A DNA stretch of 64,000 bases from an uncultured Roseibium sp. (GTDB lineage: Bacteria; Pseudomonadota; Alphaproteobacteria; Rhizobiales; Stappiaceae): the NCBI RefSeq assembly GCF_947496995.1, contig NZ_CANMFD010000001.1, positions 554,692-618,691 of the forward strand, in the 5' to 3' direction. A model generated the notes under the pieces. The model was not told the origin of the DNA. It saw only the letters and a list, made by a program, of their open reading frames with translations, and ran no database searches. A program made the position numbers and the translations under genes. Below, piece by piece: positions 41,702 through 56,480 of this stretch (position 1 is its first letter; every line of letters starts with the position of its first letter).

Positions 41702-42700
41702 TTATTTCTTGCCGAAATTCGCCCCAAGGCGCATCTGGATGTAGTCATGCGCCGTCATCGGTTCGTATTTGCCCTCCGGACCGGCAAGCACCGTATCCAT
41801 GTTGGCCTGGGCGAAAAACGCCATGGAATAGCGCGGGCCGAGATATTCCTCCGGCTTGGGCATGCGCACCCGGTGCAGGTTGGACAGCAGCTTGTCGTCG
41901 GACCAGCGCATCAGCATGTCGCCGATATTGCAGGTGATCACTCCTTCCAGCGGCGGCACGTCGGTCCAGGCGATCGCGCGGCCCTGGCTGTCCTTGCCCG
42001 GGCAGAGCTGCAATCCGCCTTGCCCCGCCTTCTGGTGCAGCAGCGTGAGACAGTCGAAGTCCGTGTGAGCTCCGGCGCGCCAGAACTTGAAGTCCTCTGG
42101 CTTGGCGTCCTCCATGCCCAGATAGTGGATCAGCCGCAGGGTGGACTGATATTCCGGCGTCAGCGGATTATGGCCATCGGTGAAGAAATCCGGCGGGAAG
42201 TCCAGCTTGTCCGCAAAGCAGGAGAGAACTTTCATCGCCAGCGCCCAGTTGTGGCGCTCGAAGGCCAGCATGGTCGCCTTGAAACCCGTGACTTCCTCCC
42301 CGGACGGCCACAGACCGGTCATGCGCGGCAGGGTGATCTGGTAGCTTTCCTTCTGGTCCGCCGTGCCGGTGGACGGGCGCACCTGCGCCTTGAATTCCCA
42401 TCCGGCATTCGAGCCGGGCTTGAGCGGGAATTGTTCCTTCGTCTCCGCGGGCAGGCTGAAAAAATCGGCCGAGAGGCGAAAGGCCTCGTCGATCAACTCC
42501 TGGGGAATGCCATGATTGGTGAGCTGGAAGAAGCCGATCCCGGTAGCTGCCTCCCACAACTCCTCGGTGATCTCCGCCTTGCGTGAGAAATAGTCCGACA
42601 TGTCGATCCGCGGGATGTCGCGATCGACGAGCTCGCCTTCGCCGCCGAAGTTCTTTTCCTTCTCCAGTTCGGCAAGGCCGTATGATGTAGAGGTGCTCAT
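41702..42700 (-). CDS. Fe(II)/2-oxoglutarate dioxygenase (isopenicillin-N-synthase-like)
   Basis: 332 residues from ATG 42700, with GAGGAG 9 bp upstream. N-terminal DIOX_N region (IPRIDMSDYF ... GIGFFQLTNHGIP), then the iron triad HTDFD and H of NLHRVRMP, and the 2-oxoglutarate arginine in RYSMAF. It is probably the last gene of the oxopurine/ABC operon, 118 bp after the deaminase. The substrate is unknown; a purine or modified nucleobase would fit the neighbours. Confidence 0.82.
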   Translation of the reverse strand: MSTSTSYGLAELEKEKNFGGEGELVDRDIPRIDMSDYFSRKAEITEELWEAATGIGFFQLTNHGIPQELIDEAFRLSADFFSLPAETKEQFPLKPGSNAGWEFKAQVRPSTGTADQKESYQITLPRMTGLWPSGEEVTGFKATMLAFERHNWALAMKVLSCFADKLDFPPDFFTDGHNPLTPEYQSTLRLIHYLGMEDAKPEDFKFWRAGAHTDFDCLTLLHQKAGQGGLQLCPGKDSQGRAIAWTDVPPLEGVITCNIGDMLMRWSDDKLLSNLHRVRMPKPEEYLGPRYSMAFFAQANMDTVLAGPEGKYEPMTAHDYIQMRLGANFGKK

Positions 42701-42817
42701 GTTTCCGTTCTCCTCAAAAAAGGGTTCCCGGAGCAATGACCCGTGCCGCGGCGGCACTGCCAGCTTATACTCCACATACCGGTTTCACCGGCAATTCAGG
42801 CCAGTCTTTCGGGCCCA

Positions 42818-44221
42818 TCAGGCATGGGCGGCGCGGGCCCCGGTGGACGCCGTTATCTCCTTTCTTCGTTCGATGATGCCCCGTGTGATCCGGCCGGCAT
42901 CTTCGGCAAGCGCCGCAAGATCGAGACCGGGTATCCGCCCGTCCTTCACGACCTGCCGGCCGCCGACGAAACTGTGCTTCACGGTTGCGGCCCCGGTCAG
43001 AACCGGCGCCAGCGCCGGGTCGTGCAGACCCAGATTACGCGGCGCATTCAAGTCGAACAGGGTGATGTCTGCGGCCATGCCGGGCGCCAGAATTCCGAAG
43101 TTGTCGAAGCCGAGCATTCTGGCGCCGCCGTCCGTTGCCCAGTTCAGCAGCGTTTCCGCGCGGGCGGCGTGAACGCCCTTGGCGGCCCGGTGAAGCGTGA
43201 AGGCGCTGTAGAGTGCCGCACCCATATCCGCCGCCTCGTTGGCTCCGGCCCCGTCGACCGCAAGGGAAACAATCCCGCCCGCGTCATGCAGCGCGTCGGC
43301 GGGCGCGATGCCGGAGCCGAGCCGCGCATTGGCCTGCGGGCAATGGGCCATGCCGGTACCGGTTTCCGCAAGCAGGGCGACTTCGGCCGGATCGCATTCA
43401 ACCAGATGAGCGAACCAGACGTCCGGCCCGAGCCAGTCCTGCTCGGCCAGCCAGTGCACCGGCCGCTTGCCGTAGCTGCGAAGCGTGAAATTCACATAGG
43501 CGCGGTTTTCGGAAAGATGCGAATGCAGCCGCAGGCCCTTGGCACGGGCGAAACCGGCAATGCCCTTCAGCTCGCCGGGCTCGACGTTAAAGGTAGGGGT
43601 CGTCGGCGCCACCGCGACCCGGCGCAGGGAGCCGGGGGAGGGGTCATGCCAGCGGTCGGCGGTCCGCTCGATGGAGGCCAGAAATGCGTCCAGTGTTTCG
43701 GTCGGCGCCGGGGGCAGGGCCGGATCCGCAAAGGAACGTCCCTTCGTGCCGCCGCCGCGGGCCAGCACGAAACGGAGACCGAGGGCGCCCGCTTCCTCGA
43801 ACAGGATGTCGGCGGGGTCGTACTCGTAACGGTCGGAGAAGACATAGTGATGATCGCAGACCGTCGTCGCGCCGGTGAGCAGAAGCTCGGCCAGTCCGAT
43901 CCGGGCGGCAACTCTCAGGGCTTCCTCGTCGATCAGCGGCCAGTAACTGTAAGGCACATGCATCAGCCAGTCGTCGAGCGGGACGTTCAGCCCTTCGGGC
44001 ACAGCCTTGAGGATCGACTGGAAGAGATGATGATGGCTGTTCACCAGCCCCGGCGTCACCACGCAGCCACCGGCATCGACGGTCTCTTCGCCGGGGTGCG
44101 GCAGAAGCGCACCCATTTCGCTGATCATGCCGTCGCGCACCCGCAGCGTGCCGCTGAAACGCTCTCCCTCCCGGTTGCCGGTAAGTCCGTAATCGATGCC
44201 GGTAATCAGGAAGGACGTCAT
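42818..44221 (-). CDS. Amidohydrolase, 8-oxoguanine-deaminase-like
   Basis: 467 residues from ATG 44221, ATGA-overlapping the permease stop. Metal ligands stand in GLVNSHHHLFQS (HxH), LHSHLSE (His) and VDGAGANEA (Asp). TVCDHHYVF, MAHCPQANARLGSG and the C-terminal AADITLFDLN are as in the ATZ/TRZ-guanine deaminase group; its closest pattern is 8-oxoguanine deaminase or AtzB-like hydroxy-triazine hydrolases. It would deaminate an imported oxopurine. The longer upstream frame overlaps the permease gene and is not used. Confidence 0.83.
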   Translation of the reverse strand: MTSFLITGIDYGLTGNREGERFSGTLRVRDGMISEMGALLPHPGEETVDAGGCVVTPGLVNSHHHLFQSILKAVPEGLNVPLDDWLMHVPYSYWPLIDEEALRVAARIGLAELLLTGATTVCDHHYVFSDRYEYDPADILFEEAGALGLRFVLARGGGTKGRSFADPALPPAPTETLDAFLASIERTADRWHDPSPGSLRRVAVAPTTPTFNVEPGELKGIAGFARAKGLRLHSHLSENRAYVNFTLRSYGKRPVHWLAEQDWLGPDVWFAHLVECDPAEVALLAETGTGMAHCPQANARLGSGIAPADALHDAGGIVSLAVDGAGANEAADMGAALYSAFTLHRAAKGVHAARAETLLNWATDGGARMLGFDNFGILAPGMAADITLFDLNAPRNLGLHDPALAPVLTGAATVKHSFVGGRQVVKDGRIPGLDLAALAEDAGRITRGIIERRKEITASTGARAAHA

Positions 44222-45075
44222 TTCTGCCCTTTCGGCAGAGACCACGGGAAGAAGATCCGCTGGGTCTGGCTGACGATCTGAAACAGCAGGAGCGACATCG
44301 CAACCAGGATTACCAGACCGGCCCAGGCCTGCGGCAGCTTGAACATGGAAGTCGAGAACTGGATGAAATAGCCGATGCCTTTTTCCGCTGCCACGAATTC
44401 CGACACCACCGCACCGATGACCGCCAGCGTGATCGAGATCTTCATGCCGGAAAAGATGTAGGGGGTCGCATAGGGCAGCCGGATCTGGGTGATCTCCCGG
44501 AAGGACGGTGCGCGCAGCGAGCGCGACAGTTCGATCAGCTCCGGCGGTGTCGCCGCAAGCCCCGTGGTCATGGAGACCACCAGCGGAAAGAAAGAGATCA
44601 TGAAGGTGATGACCACCCGCGGCGCATCGCCCGTGCCGAGCACCACGATGATGATCGGCGCAACGGCAACCACCGGCACGGACTGGATCACCACAAGCAG
44701 CGGATAGAGCGCGCCCGACAACAGCCGGGACTTCGCCAGTCCCACCGCGATCGGCAGGGAGACGACGAAGGAGACCAGATAGCCCAGCAGCGCCACGCGC
44801 AGCGTCGCCCAGATATGTTCCACCCAGCGCCCCGCCGGCACCGCTTCGAAGCCGAACAGGATGCGGGAGGGAGACGGCAGGATGTAGGACGGCACCGCAA
44901 AGATCCGGGTGCCTGCCTCCCATAGAATCAGCAGCAGCAGGAAAGTCATCAGCGGCAGCGCCACCGGCGTGCGCAACAGACGCTCCTTCAGGGGAACGGT
45001 CTTTGCGGACGGCGCTGCCGTCGCCGGCTTGGGTGTCTTTGCGCTGGACGTGTCCGGCGTGTCTGCGACCGTCAT
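44218..45075 (-). CDS. ABC transporter permease (SsuC/TauC/ThiX type)
   Basis: 285 residues from ATG 45075, sharing a base with the ATPase stop. A short hydrophilic Ala/Pro/Thr-rich leader (1-40) is followed by six membrane segments and the EAA-like loop ELIELSRSLRAPSFREITQIRLPYATPYIF. This family imports sulfonates, pyrimidine precursors, nitrate-like or purine ligands, so substrate must come from the adjoining deaminase. Confidence 0.87.
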   Translation of the reverse strand: MTVADTPDTSSAKTPKPATAAPSAKTVPLKERLLRTPVALPLMTFLLLLILWEAGTRIFAVPSYILPSPSRILFGFEAVPAGRWVEHIWATLRVALLGYLVSFVVSLPIAVGLAKSRLLSGALYPLLVVIQSVPVVAVAPIIIVVLGTGDAPRVVITFMISFFPLVVSMTTGLAATPPELIELSRSLRAPSFREITQIRLPYATPYIFSGMKISITLAVIGAVVSEFVAAEKGIGYFIQFSTSMFKLPQAWAGLVILVAMSLLLFQIVSQTQRIFFPWSLPKGQK

Positions 45076-45854
45076 CAGGCAGCTTCCTTTCGGATCAGGA
45101 GCGAACGCAGATGTGCCGCATAGTCCTGCATCTCCGGTGTCCCGAGCGAGGTCTCGTCCCGGGGACGCGATGTCGGCACAGGCAGGTCGGCGATCACTCG
45201 TCCGGGGCGCTCGCTGAGCACCAGCACACGGTCCGCCAGAAGGGCGGCTTCGGGAATGGAATGAGTGATGAACAGCACCGTCTTGGGGCTGGCCTGCCAC
45301 AGGCGCAGAAGCTCGAAACCCATCATGTCGCGAGTCAGGGCGTCCAGTGCGGAAAACGGCTCGTCCATCAGCAGGATGTCCGGGTTGAGGAACAGCGCTC
45401 GGGCAATCCCCACCCGTTGCTGCATGCCGCCGGAAAGTTCGGATGGCAGGCGCTTTTCAAACCCGGCCAGTCCGACCGTTTCGATGATCGCCTGTGCCTG
45501 CGCGCGGTCCTCGGGGGTGACCCGGCCCAGCTTGTGCCTGGCGGGAAACACCACGTTGTCCTCCACATTCGCCCAGGGCAGCAGTGTGGGCTTCTGGAAG
45601 ACGATGCCGACATCGTCGCGCGGCTGCGTCACCGAAAGGCCGAAGACGCTCACGCTGCCTGTAGAGGGTTTCATCAGACCCGCGGTCAGCCGCAGCAAGG
45701 TTGACTTGCCGCATCCCGACGGGCCGAGCACGGCGACGAACTCATGCTGGGCAATGGTGACGGAGACCCCGTCCAGGGCTGTCAGGGAGCCGGTGCCGGT
45801 CAGAAAAGTCTGACCGACACCGGAGAAGTTGATCGCGTTACCTGCAAGCGCCAC
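45075..45854 (-). CDS. ABC transporter ATPase (SsuB/TauB type)
   Basis: 259 residues. Walker A is GPSGCGKST, the Q-loop [10 protein letters not shown], the signature [15 protein letters not shown] and Walker [12 protein letters not shown], with H of FITHSIPEA. It energises the adjacent permease. Operon order is binding protein, ATPase, permease, deaminase, dioxygenase. There are 6 bp between its start and the binding-protein stop. Confidence 0.9.
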
Positions 45855-45860
45855 GGGGCG

Positions 45861-46871
45861 TCACTCCGACGCCGGCATGAAGGACCGGTCGACAACGTCC
45901 TCAGGCTGCAGCGAAGCCGGATCGAGGTCCTGGGATGCGGCAACCCGCTCCCATGTGGCCTGCAGACGGTCCGCATCCAGCGCGCCGAGGCCGTAGGTTT
46001 CGGTCACTTCGTTGAAGGCCAGCTTGGAGGCGTCGAGCCAGGAGCCCTTGACGTCTTCCGCCGAAAGCTCCGGCACCATCGCCGCAACGGCGGCTGCCGC
46101 CTTGTCCGGGTTTTCATAGGCGAATTCGAGAGACTTCTTGAATGCGGCGACGAAACGTTTCGCCACCTCCGGACGCTCGCTCAGAAAAGTGTCGCTGGCA
46201 ACGAGCGCTGCGGAATAAAGCTCCAGACCCGCATCGGCCCAGGGAAGGATGACAATTTCCTTGCCGGCTTCCTTGGCCTGACCGGTGTAACGGGACACAT
46301 CCGTCAGCCAGGCGATGATGGCGTCGGACTGGCCGGTCATCAGCAGCGGGCCGAGCGCGCCCGGATCGGATTTGGTCAGGGTGATGTCGTCTTCCGAAAT
46401 CCCGTTGTCGGCGAGCACCAGCGGCAGGAAAACGTTGGAGGAGGTGAAGGGGGAAGTGGCGATCTTCTTGCCCTTGACGTCCTTGATGGATGTGATCCCC
46501 GTGTCGGCCGTCGTGTAGAAAGCGTGCGGACCCATGTTGAAGATGGACATGACTGCGGTCGCCGGAACGCCTTCAGTTGCTCTTGCGGCCATCAGCGCAC
46601 CCAGCCCGGCAGAGCCGATATCGGACGTGCCGGTCGCCAGCTTGGTGATGGCTTCCGACGAACCGCGGCCCGGCTCGATCTTGATCTCCAGGCCTGCTTC
46701 CTGGCAGAAGCCTTCCTGAACGCAGACATAGATCGGTGCCTTGTCGCCGCCCGGCAGCCAGTCGAGCTGATAGGTCACCAGGTCCGCCGCCGAGGCGGTT
46801 CCCGAAGCCGTGACCGCTGCAGCGACCGAAGTCAGGGCAACGCACAAGATTTTCCCGTCAAACATGCGCAT
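45861..46871 (-). CDS. ABC transporter binding protein, NMT1/THI5-like
   Basis: 336 residues from ATG 46871, AAAGGA 7 nt upstream. A signal peptide of about 28 (...ASGTASA) is followed by the SsuA/NMT1-like fold: YQLDWLPGGDKAPIYVCVQEGFCQEAGLEIKI, GRGSSEAITKLATGTSDIG, KDVKGKKIATSPFTSSNV. Members bind nucleobase-like, thiamine-precursor or sulfonate ligands. The co-encoded deaminase suggests an oxopurine or pyrimidine derivative. Confidence 0.85.
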   Translation of the reverse strand: MRMFDGKILCVALTSVAAAVTASGTASAADLVTYQLDWLPGGDKAPIYVCVQEGFCQEAGLEIKIEPGRGSSEAITKLATGTSDIGSAGLGALMAARATEGVPATAVMSIFNMGPHAFYTTADTGITSIKDVKGKKIATSPFTSSNVFLPLVLADNGISEDDITLTKSDPGALGPLLMTGQSDAIIAWLTDVSRYTGQAKEAGKEIVILPWADAGLELYSAALVASDTFLSERPEVAKRFVAAFKKSLEFAYENPDKAAAAVAAMVPELSAEDVKGSWLDASKLAFNEVTETYGLGALDADRLQATWERVAASQDLDPASLQPEDVVDRSFMPASE

Positions 46872-47265
46872 CAGCACATCCTTTCACTGTTGTTTATCTG
46901 GAAAAGGGGCAAGACGCGGGAGCGTGATTTCCGACCGTTCGCCATTGTCATCCCATTGTTCGCAAGGCAGGCTCGGAATGGTCCCCCAAGGCTGCATCGG
47001 CCAACCAACAAAGATGAGCAATGTCAAAGCCGAAGGCTCTACCGCTTCTACTCGCCTCCACGGAAGATCAAGGCAGTGTTCTTGTCAAGAAGACCGCAAG
47101 GTGATTGCAATTGATTGCGGTGGCTTCGCTTAATATTTCCGCGAATGCCTCAATTTTCGCCAGACGATTGATCAAATTCTGTCCAGCAAGACTGAACGTT
47201 CCGGCGCACTTGCAAGGCGAAAACGGGCATGATCCCCTCTGCCGCAAAGCATACGGGAGACAGGC
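46872..47265. other. Divergent promoter region of the oxopurine locus
   Basis: 394 bp between the outward-facing binding-protein and deaminase genes. No gene is seen. I looked for a purine riboswitch and found neither the conserved loops nor the three-way-junction sequence on either strand. GATTGCAATTGATTGCGG (about 47102-47119) contains a direct GATTGC repeat that may be regulatory. Confidence 0.45.
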
Positions 47266-49975: not shown

Positions 49976-50355
49976 CGTCCGGAGCGGCTTCAAGATATCC
50001 TTGCCATGGCTATCGACCGGCGAAATCATGAACCGGTGACCGGGTGGGCAATCTGCCGACCGGCGGTTGGCGGGAAGTTCACTGACAGGAAGGGAGCGTT
50101 CCCCTGCGGGCACGGCACGCCGCCAGACAATTTCGACAGTCAGCGAGCTAAGATATTCAGACCTTCCCAGGCGCTGTTTCCGCAGGGTTTCGATATTTAA
50201 CCCGACGTTAAATACTGAACGGACACCATGCGTCAGGAACCACCTTCCCTTGTCCTCTCTTCCCTGATTTTATCCAACTCATTGATATTGCTCATATGCT
50301 CAGATCCAGATTCGACAGTTTCTCCCCGAAACACGCTACAGTCCAGGTGAATGCC
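49976..50355. other. Spacer upstream of the receptor channel
   Basis: 380 bp with no gene that I would defend. An AT-rich dyad (ATTTAACCCGACGTTAAAT, 50197-50215) is a candidate regulatory site about 140 bp before the channel gene. Confidence 0.45.
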
Positions 50356-51432
50356 ATGTTGCGAATTCTCGCTGCGTTTCTTGCGCTCGTCTGTTTTTCG
50401 TCAATATCGGCAGCACAGGACACTACGGAAGAAAATCCGAAACTGCTGGTCGGCATTTATGAAAGCCCTCCCTTCGTCATGGTGGACGGGGACGATATTT
50501 CGGGCATGGCGGTTGACCTCTGGGAATTCATCGCCGGCGAGATCGGAGTCGAATACGATTACAAGTCCTTCGATACGGTCACGCAACTGGTCGACGCGGT
50601 TGCGTCTGAGCAGATCGACCTTGCCGTCACCAATCTGACCATCACCGAGAAGCGCGCGGGCCGTTTTGACTTTACCCAGCCCTGGTTCGACGCAGGCTTG
50701 CGCGTCATGGTTAGCGAGACACCTCATGTCGGCTTTTCGGGGCTGATCGAAGGCCTCAGGGATGCGGGTTATCTCAAGCCTTATGCCTGGCTCGCGTTCA
50801 TCATCGTTGTCTCGACCCTGGGCATGACCCTTTTCGACCGGAAATTCGACAAGGGGTTTCCGCAGAAATGGACCGATGGCGTTGCCGAAAGCTTTTATTC
50901 GGTCATGTCGGTCGTCACCTCGGGAAAGGCCCCGTCACGGAAGAACCTGTTCGGCTGGGTTGGCCGCATCTGGCAGGCGCTGTGGCTCATTTGCGGGATA
51001 GCTGTGATGGCCTACGTCACCTCTTCGGTCACGAGTGTCATGACAAGTCTGTCGCTGACCGGAACCATCAACGGCGTCTCCGATCTTGCCGGGAGAACGG
51101 TTGCTGTCGCCGAGGGCAGCAGCGCGGAAGAATTCGCGCACGATTCGATCATCAACTCGATTTCCACCCGCAACATCAAGGCGTCCGTTGAAGCCCTGGA
51201 AAACGGCTGGGTGGAAGCCATCATCGGTGATGCCCCTGTCCTGGAGTATTACCTGCACAGGAATCCTCAGGCAGAGCTCAAGGTGGTCGGTCCGATTTTT
51301 CAACCGGAGAAATACGGCTTCGGTCTTCCCCATGGCAGCCCCCTCAGACGGGAGATGACGATAGAGGTCGTGGGGGCTCATGAAAATGGCGTGATCGACG
51401 ATCTTCGCACGCAGTATTTCGGCGACAACTGA
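50356..51432 (+). CDS. Prokaryotic ionotropic glutamate-receptor-like channel (GluR0 type)
   Basis: 358 residues. Signal peptide (1-20), S1 ligand-binding half (about 25-125), TM1 (143-160), pore loop (178-196), TM2 (203-224), then S2 half (235-358): a type-II periplasmic binding fold split by a two-helix pore, as in GluR0. R100 in TITEKR is the amino-acid carboxylate ligand, and D292 in GDAPVLEYY fits the amine-binding Asp. The filter position reads VTSGKAPS (187-194) rather than TVGYGD, so K+ selectivity is not expected. AGGTGA precedes the ATG. Confidence 0.82.
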   Translation: MLRILAAFLALVCFSSISAAQDTTEENPKLLVGIYESPPFVMVDGDDISGMAVDLWEFIAGEIGVEYDYKSFDTVTQLVDAVASEQIDLAVTNLTITEKRAGRFDFTQPWFDAGLRVMVSETPHVGFSGLIEGLRDAGYLKPYAWLAFIIVVSTLGMTLFDRKFDKGFPQKWTDGVAESFYSVMSVVTSGKAPSRKNLFGWVGRIWQALWLICGIAVMAYVTSSVTSVMTSLSLTGTINGVSDLAGRTVAVAEGSSAEEFAHDSIINSISTRNIKASVEALENGWVEAIIGDAPVLEYYLHRNPQAELKVVGPIFQPEKYGFGLPHGSPLRREMTIEVVGAHENGVIDDLRTQYFGDN

Positions 51433-51616
51433 GTTTTCAACGCGGCTGGATCTCTCTTCGGTCAGTCATAGCGCCGGAGCACGAAGGACCCGTCGCAAGG
51501 AAACGCAGAACCTCCGCCGGCCGCGCACTCGGCTTTCTCATGGTGGTTCCGTTTCCCGGTGACGGTGACTTGCCACCTTTAGTGCCTGTCCTGGCGATGT
51601 TCCGCCGAGGTCTTGC

Positions 51617-52492
51617 GTGCACAGGGTGTTGGAACAATACTCGCTGCAGCCATTCCATTCAGGAGCCTCAGCCATTTACGAGCAGGATTTTTCCAAGGAC
51701 GTTCAGATCAGGACGTTTCGGACGCTTTTTATTTCCGATATTCATTTGGGCACGCGCGGGTGTCAGGCCGAGCTGCTTCTTGACTTTTTGGGACATCACC
51801 AGGCCGAGACGATCTATCTTGTCGGCGACATCATCGACGGCTGGCGGCTCAGGAAGAAGAGATACTGGCCGGCCTCTCACCAGGCGGTCATGAACCTTCT
51901 GCTGGAGCGTGGCCATCACGGCACGACCATTGTCTATCTGCCCGGCAACCACGATGAATTTCTCAGGAAATCATGCAGGGTCCGTTTTGGCTGTGTGGAG
52001 TTCGCCGACGATATCGAACACGTCACGGCGGACGGCCGCCGCTATCTGGTCATCCATGGGGACCAGTATGACGTGGTTATCCAGAAGGCAAAATGGCTGG
52101 CCTATCTGGGCGACCGCTTTTACGTCACGGCTCTGGCGATGAACACCTGGCTCAACATCGCCCGGCGCAAGCTGGGGCTGAACTACTGGTCGCTCGGGGC
52201 TTTTGCAAAACGGCACGTCAAGCAGTTCGTCAATATCATCGGGCAGTTCGAAAACACCGTCGCCAGCGACATCAGGCAACGGAAACTTGATGGCGTCATC
52301 TGCGGTCATATCCATCACGCCACCAGTCGCGACATGAATGGCCTGCACTATCTCAACACGGGGGACTGGGTGGAAAGCTGCACCGCCATCGGCGAACGGT
52401 TTGACGGCACGATGGAGATCGTCAGATGGTCCGGGGCCGAACAGACCACGCCAAGGGCGGACCATGACAGAGAGCCTGTAATTGCCGCATGA
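51617..52492 (+). CDS. plcP: PlcP-like metallophosphoesterase (phospholipase C of lipid remodelling)
   Basis: 291 residues from GTG 51617, GAGG upstream. Calcineurin-like metal motifs: DIHLG, GDIIDGW, GNHDE, VIHGDQYD and GHIHHA. Automatic annotation would usually be UDP-2,3-diacylglucosamine diphosphatase (LpxH-like). An adjoining, 4-bp-overlapping glycosyltransferase is the hallmark of PlcP, the Mn-dependent phospholipase C that strips head groups from phospholipids under phosphate starvation in marine alphaproteobacteria. LpxH is the alternative. No clear Pho box was found. Confidence 0.72.
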   Translation: MHRVLEQYSLQPFHSGASAIYEQDFSKDVQIRTFRTLFISDIHLGTRGCQAELLLDFLGHHQAETIYLVGDIIDGWRLRKKRYWPASHQAVMNLLLERGHHGTTIVYLPGNHDEFLRKSCRVRFGCVEFADDIEHVTADGRRYLVIHGDQYDVVIQKAKWLAYLGDRFYVTALAMNTWLNIARRKLGLNYWSLGAFAKRHVKQFVNIIGQFENTVASDIRQRKLDGVICGHIHHATSRDMNGLHYLNTGDWVESCTAIGERFDGTMEIVRWSGAEQTTPRADHDREPVIAA

Positions 52493-53523
52493 AATCCGTG
52501 CTCTTCGTGACGGATGCCTGGTATCCGCAAATCAACGGTGTCGTCCGGACGCTTGAATATACGGCCGATGAGCTGCGGAACCGCGGTCTGCGCGTGGAGT
52601 TCATGACACCTCGGGAGTTCAGGACGGTTCCCTGCCCGACCTATCCCGATATCCGGCTCTCCCTGACGACCGGTCGCACCGTGCGCAGGCTTATCCGGGA
52701 CTACGATTGCGACCATGTGCATATAGCGACGGAAGGTCCTCTCGGGCTGCTCGCCGCTGCGGCCGCCAAAAAGGAAAGCCGCACCTTCACAACCAGCTAC
52801 CACACCCGTTTTCCTGAATATGTGGCGGCCCGCTTGCCGTTGCCGACAGCGCCCTTCTATGCCTGGTTCCGCCGCTTCCACAATTCCGGGTCCGGGTGCA
52901 TGGTCGCCACGTCGCTGCTGAAAGAAAATCTGCGCGAGCGCAAATTCCGGAACCTGATGCGCTGGTCGCGCGGCGTCGATACCAGCCTGTTCAGACCCGA
53001 TGAAGGCTCCGTCCTGCCGGTGGCGCTTCCCCGGCCGGTTTTCATGAATGTCGGCCGTGTCGCCGTCGAGAAGAACATCGGGGCCTTCCTCGATCTTGAC
53101 CTGCCCGGCTCCAAGGTCGTCGTGGGCGACGGTCCGCAACTGGAAAGCCTGCGCCGCAGCTATCCGGAGGTCCATTTCACCGGCGCGAAATCCGGAGAGG
53201 ATCTCGCCCGGCACTATGCAAGCGCCGACGTCTTCGTCTTTCCCTCAAAGACGGACACCTTCGGACTGGTGCTGCTGGAAGCGCTGGCCTGCGGCACGCC
53301 TGTGGCCGCCTATCCGGTCATGGGGCCGCTCGACGTGATCGGCGACAGAGGCGCGGGCGTCCTGTCCGACGATTTGCGCGAAGCTGCGCTTGCGGCCCTG
53401 AAGATACCGCGAGATGTCTGCCGGAAAGCGGCACTCGGGCAGAGCTGGGCCGTCTGCACCGATCAATTCGTTGCCAACATGGAAGCAGCGGTAGCAGCGG
53501 AAGCGGCGCACGGGCGCGCCTGA
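52489..53523 (+). CDS. agt: GT4 glycosyltransferase, Agt-like (glycolipid synthesis)
   Basis: 344 residues of the GT-B fold. DAWYPQINGVVRTLEYTADEL and FMTPREF at the N-terminus, TSYHTRFPEY, then the C-terminal nucleotide-sugar domain FMNVGRVAVEKN and the E-x7-E motif FVFPSKTDTFGLVLLEALAC. Start ATG overlaps plcP TGA (ATGA). In the PlcP-Agt pathway this enzyme glycosylates diacylglycerol to MGDG or glucuronosyl-DAG, replacing phospholipid. The lipid assignment rests on the gene pair. Confidence 0.75.
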   Translation: MKSVLFVTDAWYPQINGVVRTLEYTADELRNRGLRVEFMTPREFRTVPCPTYPDIRLSLTTGRTVRRLIRDYDCDHVHIATEGPLGLLAAAAAKKESRTFTTSYHTRFPEYVAARLPLPTAPFYAWFRRFHNSGSGCMVATSLLKENLRERKFRNLMRWSRGVDTSLFRPDEGSVLPVALPRPVFMNVGRVAVEKNIGAFLDLDLPGSKVVVGDGPQLESLRRSYPEVHFTGAKSGEDLARHYASADVFVFPSKTDTFGLVLLEALACGTPVAAYPVMGPLDVIGDRGAGVLSDDLREAALAALKIPRDVCRKAALGQSWAVCTDQFVANMEAAVAAEAAHGRA

Positions 53524-53581
53524 CGCCGGGCCAGCGAAAACCGCCGCCCTATCTCACCCGGTCAAACGTAATCGGCCAATA

Positions 53582-55111
53582 TCAGCCTGTCAGAGGCACC
53601 CGTCCGGATCGGGCTTCCAGGAACTGATCGCTCAAGGCGCCGGTTTCGTCCGTCACCTTCAGCGGTTCGAAGTCCTTGGCGAATTGGCTCGGCAGTCTGT
53701 AAAGCGGCCGGTAGGCGGATCGCAACGGGTCGGTCATGGCGTTGTAGGTCAGCGCGGGTTCCCGGAACGACTGGCGCATCTGGCGCGGGCTGCCGAGACC
53801 GAAATTTCCGCCGAACCGATGCAGAGGACGCACGGCGGACAGGACCGTCTGCTCCCATTCGAAATGCTTGCGCCAGTGCCATGCATGCCCGAACGCATGG
53901 CGCGTGAGAGCCATCTTGCGCCCGCGGAACTTCAACAGGTCGCGCAGGAAAGGCGTGACCTTTTCCAGCGGTTCCTGCGGCCATTCGACAAGCTTCTGCC
54001 CGTCCATGTCACTCAAAAGCACATTCGGCATCAGCCGCCCGGCCCGCGCGGCCTCGTCGAAATAGGGCGTCCCGGCAATCGGTATGGTCAGCGACAGCAG
54101 GCCGGGCAGGGGGATGCGCGGATCCGAAAGGATGCCGGAAACCTGATCGTCCACCTCGGCGATGGTCTGTTGGGCAAAATCGATAATCACGCCGTAGTCG
54201 AAGAACATGCCGTGCTCCGCACAGGCCTGGGTCAGGGACAGCGGATCGGAGGCAAGGCTCTGCTTCTTGTTGAAGGTTCTCAGCACAGCCGGATCGAGAT
54301 TCTCGACACCGGAGAAAAGCGCCTTGCAACCGTTGTCCGCCATCAGCTTGAGGTTTTCCGGACGCTTGAAGAAATCGCCCGTCACCAGCGCGCCCCAGCC
54401 GCGAAACTGCCCCTGTCTCCAGCGCTCGCCGATTTTGCCGACGCGCCACTCGAAGCTGCTGCGGTTGTTGCCGTAGAAGTTGTTGTCCAGAACCATGACA
54501 CCGAAGGCCTTGCCCATGGCATCCAGCTGACCGTCGATCGACGCTTCGCTGTGGGCGGTGTAAGCGCGCCCTTCGCCGGACAGGGAGCAGAAGGAACAGG
54601 CAAAATTGCAGTTCTTGGTGGTTTCGAGATAGCCGACCCCCATGGTCGGGGCTGTCAGGTCGAAGCGGGGCGCGGTCTGGTCCGCAAGATGATCCGCGCT
54701 GAAGACGGCTTCGATGACCGCTCCGATCTCTTCCACGTCGCCCTGGCAGGTGTAGTCGAACACCTGATTGCAGAGGGCGGGCAGCGCCCGGGCGATCGGG
54801 CCGCCGATGACGCTCACCACCTGCGGATTGAAATGCCGGCAATAGGCGCCCAGTTGCCGCGCCCGGTCGAAGGCCGCCGTCAACCCGGTGAACACCACCA
54901 TGTCCGGCCATTCCAGCAGGCGGCGGTTCAGCAGCGCGCCGTGAAAGACTTCGTCCCAGACCCTGACCTCGACATGATCGCGGTCGAAATAGCCCGCCAG
55001 ATAATAGGGAGCCATTGCGCGCGGAACGAACAACCGTGTGGGCGATGCCGATCTCCACGGGTCGAAGTAGGCATTCACGATGAGAACTCGGCGCTTCTGT
55101 CCCGTTTGCAT
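53582..55111 (-). CDS. B12-binding-type radical SAM protein
   Basis: 509 residues from ATG 55111; TTG 55141 is possible. An N-terminal cobalamin-binding-like Rossmann region (VLIVNAYFDPW ... MVVFTGLTAAFDRA, VIGGPIARA) lacks a clear DxHxxG. The radical SAM core follows with CNFACSFC (C-x3-C-x2-C). The C-terminal 150 residues (RHAFGHAWHW) are His/Arg-rich. Class B radical SAM enzymes methylate or rearrange unreactive carbons. Convergent with plcP-agt; a lipid or natural-product substrate is possible but unproven. Confidence 0.82.
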   Translation of the reverse strand: MQTGQKRRVLIVNAYFDPWRSASPTRLFVPRAMAPYYLAGYFDRDHVEVRVWDEVFHGALLNRRLLEWPDMVVFTGLTAAFDRARQLGAYCRHFNPQVVSVIGGPIARALPALCNQVFDYTCQGDVEEIGAVIEAVFSADHLADQTAPRFDLTAPTMGVGYLETTKNCNFACSFCSLSGEGRAYTAHSEASIDGQLDAMGKAFGVMVLDNNFYGNNRSSFEWRVGKIGERWRQGQFRGWGALVTGDFFKRPENLKLMADNGCKALFSGVENLDPAVLRTFNKKQSLASDPLSLTQACAEHGMFFDYGVIIDFAQQTIAEVDDQVSGILSDPRIPLPGLLSLTIPIAGTPYFDEAARAGRLMPNVLLSDMDGQKLVEWPQEPLEKVTPFLRDLLKFRGRKMALTRHAFGHAWHWRKHFEWEQTVLSAVRPLHRFGGNFGLGSPRQMRQSFREPALTYNAMTDPLRSAYRPLYRLPSQFAKDFEPLKVTDETGALSDQFLEARSGRVPLTG

Positions 55112-55385
55112 GCGTATCCCGAAGGTTTCAGGTTTGATCAAGTCTGATGCCTACCCAAATGCTCTAAAGACGCGAACCAGCCGCCGCAAGGCCGGAGTGC
55201 CGGTTATCGTCCGGTGGGGTTTCTTGTGCGCGAGCCTGTGGTCCAAAAGGAACGCAACCGGTTGGCTGTGTTCTCCTGAAGCGGGAAGCGGTAGGAGTTT
55301 ATGAACGTCTTGCTGCTACGCATCGGGCGCGATACCAGGAACAGCAATTGAACTCGATTTCAGACAGTTTGCCGATAGCCCTTCC

Positions 55386-56480
55386 ATGGAAATGATCGAT
55401 CACTTCAAGATGCACGATGCCTTTGCGCATCTGAACGACAGCGTGCTTGAAAGCATCGCTTCTGTATCCCGATACGTTCAAATTCCCGAAACGCAAACCA
55501 TCGTGCGCGAAGGCGACGAAACCTCCGATCTGTTTCTTCTGATCGAGGGCGAGGCTCTCGCCACCAGGAAAGGGCCGGAGGGCGGCGACATTCCGCTGAA
55601 CACGGTACGCGCCGGAGAATGTCTCGGGGAACTGGCGTTTCTGGACGGTGCACCGCGTGCCGCCTCCGTCATCGCGCAGACCGCCTGCACGCTTATCGAG
55701 ATCCCTGTGGCCGCCCTCAAGGGGCTGCCTGACGGTGCCGCCGTTTCCGGTGAACTGAAGGGGGCCCTGGCGAGCGTGGTGGTCAAGCGTGCGCGGTCCC
55801 TGAGTGACGGCATGCTGTCCGCCCTGCAGGAGCAACTGGCGGCGAAAACACTGCAGAACCAGTTCGGCTACTTTCTGGTCTTCACCATTGCGCTTTATCT
55901 GATTTCGACCTCGCTGTTCTATCTCGTGGCCGAACGCTACGTGAAGGACGTCTATGATCCCGGGTTCTCCTGGCAGACCATCCTGGCGTTTGCGGTTCCC
56001 TGCCTGATCATCATCAAGGTCATGAAAATCCCGGCCGGCCAGCTTGGTCTGCGCCGGGAAGGGCTGTTCCGCTCGCTCGCCCAGTCATTCGCGATCTGCC
56101 TGGTGCTGTCGGCGCCGGCGCTGATCTACCTGGTTTTCTTCAAGGGGGATCAGGTTCCGCAAAATGCCGGCGTCAAGGTCGACCTGCTGTTCCTGGTGCA
56201 ATACCTGTTTCACACCGTGATCCAGGAAATCGGCTCCAGGGGCCTGCTCCAGGGCCTGTTCCAGAAGTTCCTTGCCGACACCAGGGGACACCGCGCCGTC
56301 TTCCTCACCAGCACCATCTTCGCCTCGCTCCACCTGACCTTCGGGGTGGACGCGGTGGTCATCACCTTCTTCGCCAGCATCGTCTTCGGCTATGTCTATC
56401 TCTACCAGAAGAACCTCGCCGGGGTGGTCCTGATGCACTACTGGTTCGGCGTTCTCGCGGCACTGATGGTGGCCATCTGA
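55386..56480 (+). CDS. Cyclic-nucleotide-binding domain fused to CPBP membrane protease
   Basis: 364 residues. cNMP domain 1-125 with phosphate-binding cassette GECLGELAFLDGAPRAAS (77-94). Eight membrane segments (160-364) carry the CPBP/Rce1-like motifs: Q280-E281-x3-R285, F312-x3-H316 and H351. CPBP proteases normally have paired Glu (EEx3R); here the first is Gln, which may lower activity. The architecture implies a membrane protease or scaffold gated by cAMP/cGMP-like ligand. A 245-bp spacer upstream has no other gene. Confidence 0.8.
   Translation: MEMIDHFKMHDAFAHLNDSVLESIASVSRYVQIPETQTIVREGDETSDLFLLIEGEALATRKGPEGGDIPLNTVRAGECLGELAFLDGAPRAASVIAQTACTLIEIPVAALKGLPDGAAVSGELKGALASVVVKRARSLSDGMLSALQEQLAAKTLQNQFGYFLVFTIALYLISTSLFYLVAERYVKDVYDPGFSWQTILAFAVPCLIIIKVMKIPAGQLGLRREGLFRSLAQSFAICLVLSAPALIYLVFFKGDQVPQNAGVKVDLLFLVQYLFHTVIQEIGSRGLLQGLFQKFLADTRGHRAVFLTSTIFASLHLTFGVDAVVITFFASIVFGYVYLYQKNLAGVVLMHYWFGVLAALMVAI

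Follow-up and report, generated by a model that had tools for sequence, protein, structure and literature searches.

A predicted GluR0-like receptor channel without a K+ filter in Roseibium, and a clade of relatives with a conserved basic filter residue

Introduction

P-loop channels are textbook cation channels. Among the prokaryotic iGluRs, GluR0 of Synechocystis belongs to Group 1, carries a K+ filter and is K+-selective (PMC2950845). GluR0 has been studied by complementation of E. coli deficient in K+ uptake (passage of PMC13099474). In the same 2010 paper that defines the groups, 10 of 22 prokaryotic iGluRs, from proteobacteria and cyanobacteria, make up Group 2, the pore loops of which were not recognized as resembling any channel of known selectivity; no filter motif is stated for them in the main text (PMC2950845). 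Another described system is GluR0 of Nostoc punctiforme, whose structure 2pyy comprises the ligand core only, with the pore outside it. The filter of plant GLRs has a conserved basic residue, Arg666, and in the relevant passage of a review anion permeation is called plausible on that ground, with supporting data absent (PMC11479355); an acidic residue four positions past the Q/R/N site is kept in these receptors, according to the part of PMC12226733 dealing with that site. A positive filter charge is shared by the Q/R-edited AMPA and kainate receptors, which are Ca2+-impermeable and for which a slight Cl- permeability has been argued (passages of PMC11479355 and PMC6754398).

The window analysed here is a 64,000-nucleotide stretch of the genome of an uncultured Roseibium sp. 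(contig NZ_CANMFD010000001.1, positions 554,692 to 618,691), and it encodes a protein of 358 residues in which the following features of a prokaryotic iGluR are found: a split binding domain, predicted transmembrane helices with a pore loop, the ligand-binding Arg and Asp, and homology to P-loop pores. Like the Group 2 proteins, it has the order S1-TM1-P-TM2-S2, the conserved Arg and Asp and the GluR0 topology without a K+ filter, a likeness to the published description of the group (PMC2950845). Unlike Synechocystis GluR0, it has no GYG but a conserved basic residue, its filter stretch reading TSGKAP instead of the TVGYG type of Group 1. The amino-terminal domain and M4 helix of eukaryotic iGluRs, which plant GLRs also carry, are both absent. 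Plant AtGLR3.4 is nevertheless the best match of the pore profile in the PDB, and by analogy the plant GLRs appear to be the closest parallel to the clade of 64 sequences in which the window protein falls, although 63 of these 64 have no acidic residue at positions 188-204. The Q/R-edited AMPA and kainate receptors differ in having Arg at the Q/R site proper and in retaining the +4 Asp; moreover, their filter charge comes from RNA editing, and that of the clade is genome-encoded. An earlier note made from the sequence alone had not recognized this arrangement among described prokaryotic GluRs. Neither the clade nor its conserved basic filter was found in the open-licence papers of PubMed Central, so that the clade-wide basic filter is apparently unreported there; the prokaryotic iGluR without a K+ filter is, however, a known kind, described since 2010 as Group 2 (PMC2950845).

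Gene and Protein Organization

An in-frame ATG at 50296, seen by inspection of the sequence, would lengthen the open reading frame by 20 residues; the start at 50356 is favoured because of the Shine-Dalgarno-like AGGTGA ahead of it (Table 1). Signal peptide, S1, TM1, pore loop, TM2 and S2 follow one another along the protein as in GluR0. The top Pfam domain is SBP_bac_3, matched as one split binding domain over residues 32-356 (3.4e-19); Lig_chan-Glu_bd is matched as well (2.6e-9), and Lig_chan reaches 27.0 bits over residues 146-248, under its cut-off of 30.8. Among solved structures, the Nostoc GluR0 ligand core 2pyy is the best sequence match (1.2e-33), and the nearest named matches of the gene are in Labrenzia strains and Stappia stellulata. 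As judged by the AlphaFold helices, the protein ends with S2, and neither the Pfam scan nor the AlphaFold model has a cytoplasmic signalling domain. The GluR0-like layout of split binding domain, TM1, pore loop and TM2 proposed in the earlier note is upheld by domain matches, AlphaFold model, phylogeny and selection in agreement; the ligand residues that it named, R100 and D292, are present and conserved in 64 and 63 of the 64 clade members, respectively.

Table 1. Features of the receptor-channel gene and of the nearby transporter genes (positions in the window).
Feature	Position	Strand	Basis or remark
Receptor-channel gene	50356..51432	+	ORF with stop codon, 358 aa
Shine-Dalgarno-like AGGTGA	50345..50350	+	5 bases ahead of ATG at 50356; read from sequence
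Signal peptide, residues 1-21	50356..50418	+	By eye; helix 2-14 in AlphaFold model
S1 half of amino-acid-binding domain, residues 30-121, including R100 (50653-50655)	50443..50718	+	Pfam SBP_bac_3 and Lig_chan-Glu_bd
TM1, residues 140-164	50773..50847	+	AlphaFold helix
Pore helix, residues 172-189	50869..50922	+	AlphaFold helix
Filter stretch TSGKAP, residues 188-193, K191 at 50926-50928	50917..50934	+	Sequence; G190 in 64/64, K/R at 191 in 60/64
Non-helical filter and return segment GKAPSRKNLF, residues 190-199	50923..50952	+	Basic, acidic residues 0; AlphaFold coil
TM2 (M3 counterpart), residues 200-235	50953..51060	+	AlphaFold helix; pore profile match; conservation
Gate-like YVTSSVTSVMT within TM2	51013..51045	+	Profile-aligned to SYTASLTSILT of plant GLR3.4
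S2 half of binding domain, residues 236-356, including D292 (51229-51231)	51061..51423	+	
ABC ATPase and permease	44218-45854	-	By motif; about 4.5 kb from receptor gene, opposite strand
NMT1-type binding protein	45861-46877	-	Directly beside ABC ATPase/permease

Homology of the Pore

The AlphaFold model of the window protein has a mean pLDDT of 91, with only 73 at residues 191-200. When the full-length model was searched with Foldseek, 48 of the 50 matches listed were chains of AMPA, NMDA or kainate receptors (365-412 columns, E 5e-22 to 9e-21) and the remaining two were the Nostoc GluR0 core; rmsd values of 7-13 and TM-scores of 0.46-0.61 accompanied these matches, and therefore the domain arrangement is alike only roughly. 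A structure prediction of the pore alone (pLDDT 60) was too poor to serve as a search query. The pore-only sequence profile A1, made from 12 sequences without the binding domain, gave 19 matches in the PDB with E up to 10, and all of them are P-loop channels, a class that we assigned to each by its name. They include plant GLR3.4 (the best, 0.0028), Lmo2059 (which we take to be a Listeria K+ channel), KCNQ channels, GluN3A and the 'Ion transport protein' 4ltr (presumably a bacterial sodium channel). The larger clade profile A6 (51 sequences) performed more weakly, with seven P-loop channels among 12 matches (GLR3.4 at 0.052, Lmo2059 at 0.15); the other five were taken as noise, being anion exchangers (E of 0.3 and above) and phage Mu-type proteins (1.1 and above). 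Compared by hhalign, the clade pore and the GluR0-type K+ pores align with a probability of 98.6 over 111 columns, and the GluR0-type K+ pores match Kv channels at 5e-15. Judged from these alignments, the P-loop link appears firmer through relatives, from clade pore to GluR0-type K+ pore to Kv channel, than through the direct PDB matches. In TM2, YVTSSVTSVMT aligns, short of full identity, with SYTASLTSILT of GLR3.4 (the eukaryotic M3 gate motif being SYTANLAAF), and the GLR3.4 segment is the counterpart of the iGluR gate motif given in a passage of PMC11479355.

The pore loop lies where it had been placed from the sequence alone, and the profile search proposed at that time connects the clade pores both with GluR0-type K+ pores and with P-loop channels. 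This homology bears directly on the reading of the protein as a common ABC-transporter solute-binding protein into which a membrane anchor has been inserted. Such a protein would agree with the public annotation of the relatives ('transporter substrate-binding domain-containing protein') and with SBP_bac_3 as the top Pfam domain, and the window does contain an ABC ATPase and permease. The insert, however, is homologous to P-loop pores and more conserved than the binding domain; the ABC genes lie on the opposite strand beside an NMT1-type binding protein of their own; and the annotated plasmid stretches examined, for which the PLSDB tables are incomplete, list neither an ABC permease nor an ABC ATPase close to the relatives, the loci from genomes carrying no annotation. 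Family 3 binding proteins are soluble and have no inserted pore, whereas TM1, pore loop and TM2 are predicted here by AlphaFold. On the strength of the P-loop profile matches, the hhalign result and the conservation of the pore loop, the ordinary binding protein with an insertion was rejected, and we hold it to be extremely improbable.

Filter Motif and Register

The absence of GYG from the stretch TSGKAP, as first read from the sequence, is confirmed, and in the AlphaFold model G190 and K191 stand between the end of the pore helix (189) and the start of TM2 (200), the place expected of a filter. GYG was sought in the 64 clade pores, the window protein included, and found in none of them; the K+ group has it in 21 of 21. 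In a gap-free alignment of the pore helices, S189 stands opposite the second T of TTVGYG (which we take to be the T75 position of KcsA) and K191 opposite the first filter glycine, a register one residue away from the earlier pairing of TSGKAP with TVGYGD. A profile-profile alignment sets TSG---KAP against TVGYGDKAP, with YGD treated as missing. All three registers concur that GYG is absent and that in the window protein a lysine immediately follows the filter glycine; these parts of the earlier comparison stand, whereas a lysine facing the tyrosine depends on the alignment chosen. In the gap-free register, S189 would presumably occupy the position of the animal Q/R/N site, and P193 that of the +4 acidic residue (GluA2 letters). 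The relevant part of PMC12226733 reports that Ser at the Q/R/N site reduces Ca2+ permeation in a placozoan receptor, and that GluR0 retains the equivalent of the +4 aspartate.

A Clade with a Conserved Basic Filter

The 64 sequences of the clade lie on one side of a branch with SH-aLRT support of 96 in a 127-row tree, and of 100 in each of two further trees, one omitting the pore loop and one restricted to the binding domain. These trees were quick searches on 127 rows, or on 125 without L030 and L031, each containing 12 of the 45 NGGFEE sequences described below; the group had initially been delimited by a pore score of more than 108 (113.3 being the lowest score inside it and 103.8 the highest outside) and was afterwards tested as a clade. 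G190 is invariant in it, and 63 members have K or R at 189 or 191, the exception being L107 (TQGE). Residue 191 is K in 38 members and R in 22, and the motifs are TSGK (30), TSGR (14), TTGK (6), TTGR (2) and rarer forms. The filter stretch is considered more than chance, since 64 sequences, some with as little as about 40% identity to the window protein, conserve it. A tree from which the pore loop had been excluded requires, for residue 191, at least 18 changes of identity and 2 of charge, and for the charge taken jointly at 189 or 191 a single change, all of them minimum counts on one quick tree; the pattern suggested by the sequences is that the charge is conserved and the side chain is not. 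In three members (L024, L060, L065) the lysine is at 189 (TKGT/TKGS) and Ser replaces Lys at 196, which may possibly represent a compensating move of the charge.

In an alignment of 146 sequences, a basic residue within 188-192 is present in 51 of 52 clade members and 2 of 28 other sequences, and in none of 21 K+-type and 45 NGGFEE-type sequences. A purely topological (positive-inside) cause of the filter lysine was rejected, given that the K+-type and NGGFEE-type relatives have the same plan without a basic residue there; for R195 and K196 that explanation may hold. The second large group (45 sampled, mostly from the family of genome G654; L026, L079, L080 and L101 are examples) has the filter NGGFEER, acidic where the clade is basic and with acidic residues in 45 of 45; judged by sequence, it resembles a cation-type equivalent built on that same scaffold. 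Further filters, namely TQASTG, TQAGAA, TQRSS, AGQQPD, ATQADQ and TNASFT, were observed among L113, L116, L117, L042, L112, L114, L121, L124, L125, L128, L047, L126, L008, L038 and L078. The filters of prokaryotic iGluRs in the bacterial class sampled are more varied than a division into K+ and non-K+ types.

Selection on the Pore

Within the clade, conservation is highest in the pore loop and TM2, with mean column entropies of 1.01 and 0.75, respectively, against 1.45 for S1 and 1.65 for S2. Whole-gene dN/dS against the close orthologues L004, L005, L006 and L159 is 0.115, 0.175, 0.116 and 0.076, and their pore loops show 0, 2, 2 and 3 non-synonymous differences from that of the window gene. 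For the more distant L014 and L016 the values are 0.262 and 0.184, and the pore loops show 2 and 6 such differences; several gene regions in these comparisons are saturated in dS. A dead pore would not fit this pattern of selection, and a filter due to chance or decay was rejected on the strong purifying selection and the invariant G190.

Signalling by shape change without conduction has been proposed for delta receptors, and the window protein could likewise be an amino-acid receptor that has kept the channel fold and does not conduct. The basic ring might then block the pore, and by DNA similarity no neighbouring gene is common with L005, L006 or L159. Nonetheless, the most conserved parts are precisely the pore loop and the gate helix, the protein has no cytoplasmic signalling domain, and the filter charge has been held instead of drifting; a non-conducting receptor is therefore judged quite improbable.

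Genomic Surroundings and Distribution

Within flanks of about 6 kb per side compared by blastn, the downstream genes (50111-56476) are common only to Labrenzia sp. OB1 (L004), and L005, L006, L159 and L007 have the receptor gene alone in common with the window. The neighbours between 45861 and 56480 encode an NMT1-type binding protein, a short-chain dehydrogenase, an HxlR regulator, an F420-type reductase, a metallophosphoesterase, a glycosyltransferase, a B12/radical-SAM protein (53582-55141, minus strand; B12-binding, with two Pfam scores each under the cut-off) and a cyclic-nucleotide-binding domain fused to an Rce1-like CAAX protease membrane domain (55386-56480, plus strand). The NMT1-type protein is the likely partner of the ABC ATPase and permease, and none of the three genes adjoins the receptor gene. 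They are part of a run of open reading frames on the minus strand (41702-46877) that by eye resemble a 2-oxoglutarate-type oxygenase, an amidohydrolase, an ABC permease, an ABC ATPase and the NMT1-type protein (the one covered by the Pfam scan), perhaps a cluster for nucleobase uptake and breakdown if these resemblances hold. Promoter-like sites numbered 2 against 0.8 (sd 1.0) in shuffled sequence and terminator-like sites 2 against 2.4, which gives no usable excess. In Roseibium aggregatum (L159:7127-11828) the receptor gene is followed by the efflux genes YtcA, MdtN, FUSC and TolC; an MFS gene is close by on the two Agrobacterium plasmids examined and an RND pump in Paracoccus alcaliphilus. 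The proximity of these efflux genes is possibly due to chance.

The relatives were gathered with a profile seeded from the clade, and their filter-type counts are therefore no census. From 171 loci, 169 of them with a pore match, 160 were kept as distinct (the near-duplicates L020/L021, L158/L171 and L029/L032 remaining), and these pore-bearing proteins comprise 64 clade members, 21 proteins that have a K+ filter, 45 that have NGGFEE and 30 of other kinds. Of the 87 genomes of the family, 17 contain a relative (E up to 1e-15, the window's own counted). At E 1e-40 or better and among the matches listed, the pore profile was found in 37 of 397 genomes of the order sample and 5 of 299 of the phylum sample (own genome included in both), in 3 of 345 in the family of G654, and in 1 of 385 of the class sample, which is the window's own genome. 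Among 72,556 plasmid records, 21 matched at 1e-20 or better, and 12 of the 14 examined carry clade members; the hosts of these are Roseibium, Agrobacterium, Paracoccus, Devosia, Phyllobacterium, Chelatococcus, Ochrobactrum and Salmonella. The plasmid that bears it in Roseibium aggregatum measures 349 kb. Paracoccus denitrificans has a clade member (L167), and some of the Group 2 accessions are, as far as we can tell, from Silicibacter, Magnetospirillum and Paracoccus denitrificans. Salmonella accounts for four of the 21 matching plasmid records, three of them among those examined; these conjugative plasmids of Salmonella enterica carry members with about 40% identity and the filter TTGK (L158:6001-7053, L160:2959-3864, L171:3001-4053), with transposase genes near the receptor gene in L158 and L171. 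No DNA match of the Salmonella clade member was found in E. coli genomes, and three of 50,697 phage records matched, all partially and in the binding domain only. Overall, the receptor gene looks like a stand-alone, transferable one.

Proposed Function

The window protein is proposed to be an inner-membrane amino-acid-gated channel of the prokaryotic iGluR type, with a pore that is not K+-selective and a basic ring in its filter, a proposal to which we give an even chance. Sequence and model both indicate that S1 and S2 fold into a clamshell resembling the one of Nostoc GluR0, with TM1, a re-entrant pore loop and TM2 between them, that the K+ signature is absent, and that the filter keeps a basic residue throughout the clade. 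Four subunits would assemble; an amino acid, of the glutamate or glutamine class, would close the periplasmic clamshell and pull on TM2; and the opened pore would let ions through without K+ selection. The protein thus probably passes something other than K+. A ring of at least four positive charges without an acidic counter-residue should be unfavourable to Ca2+ and polyamines while letting through anions or weakly selected monovalent ions, and therefore binding of the amino acid would either depolarize the cell or move anions.

Which ions would pass is the point on which two readings diverge. To our knowledge, the well-characterized P-loop channels are cation conductors, and the window protein could be a non-selective or Na+-preferring ligand-gated cation channel in which K191 is off-axis or acts like the lysine of DEKA filters. 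In the relevant parts of PMC12226733, the lysine of sodium-channel filters favours Na+ over Ca2+, and Ser at the Q/R/N site, where the gap-free register puts S189, cuts Ca2+ permeation. DEKA has acidic residues, however, and residues 188-204 have none in 63 of the 64 clade members; the uniformly acidic NGGFEE filters would appear far more cation-like. The cation channel is accordingly a possibility that deserves attention, if an unlikely one. Anion permeation of the window receptor is plausible, though rather improbable as its main function, and the clade might consist of natively anion-permeable P-loop channels, which would have inherited a K+-type pore, changed GYG to (T/S)G(K/R) and dispensed with the acidic residues. 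As a statement about the whole clade this is a doubtful proposition. Caution is called for because the Arg ring of GluA2(R) gives a PCl/PCs of only 0.14, and with gamma-2 the Cl- flux is negligible (passage of PMC6754398).

Biological Significance

Whether a basic filter can let a P-loop channel pass anions is a question that has been posed for plant GLRs, the pore loop of which is disordered in the solved structure (passage of PMC11479355). A protein of 358 residues without amino-terminal domain or M4 would be a small natural test system for basic P-loop filters. In its clade, the charge is fixed and the side chain swapped freely, and in one lineage the charge stands two positions off. Relatives with K+-type and with acidic filters occur in the same bacterial class, and therefore selectivity could be compared on one scaffold. 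The anion reading, if true, would make the clade an independent parallel to the arginine in plant GLR filters.
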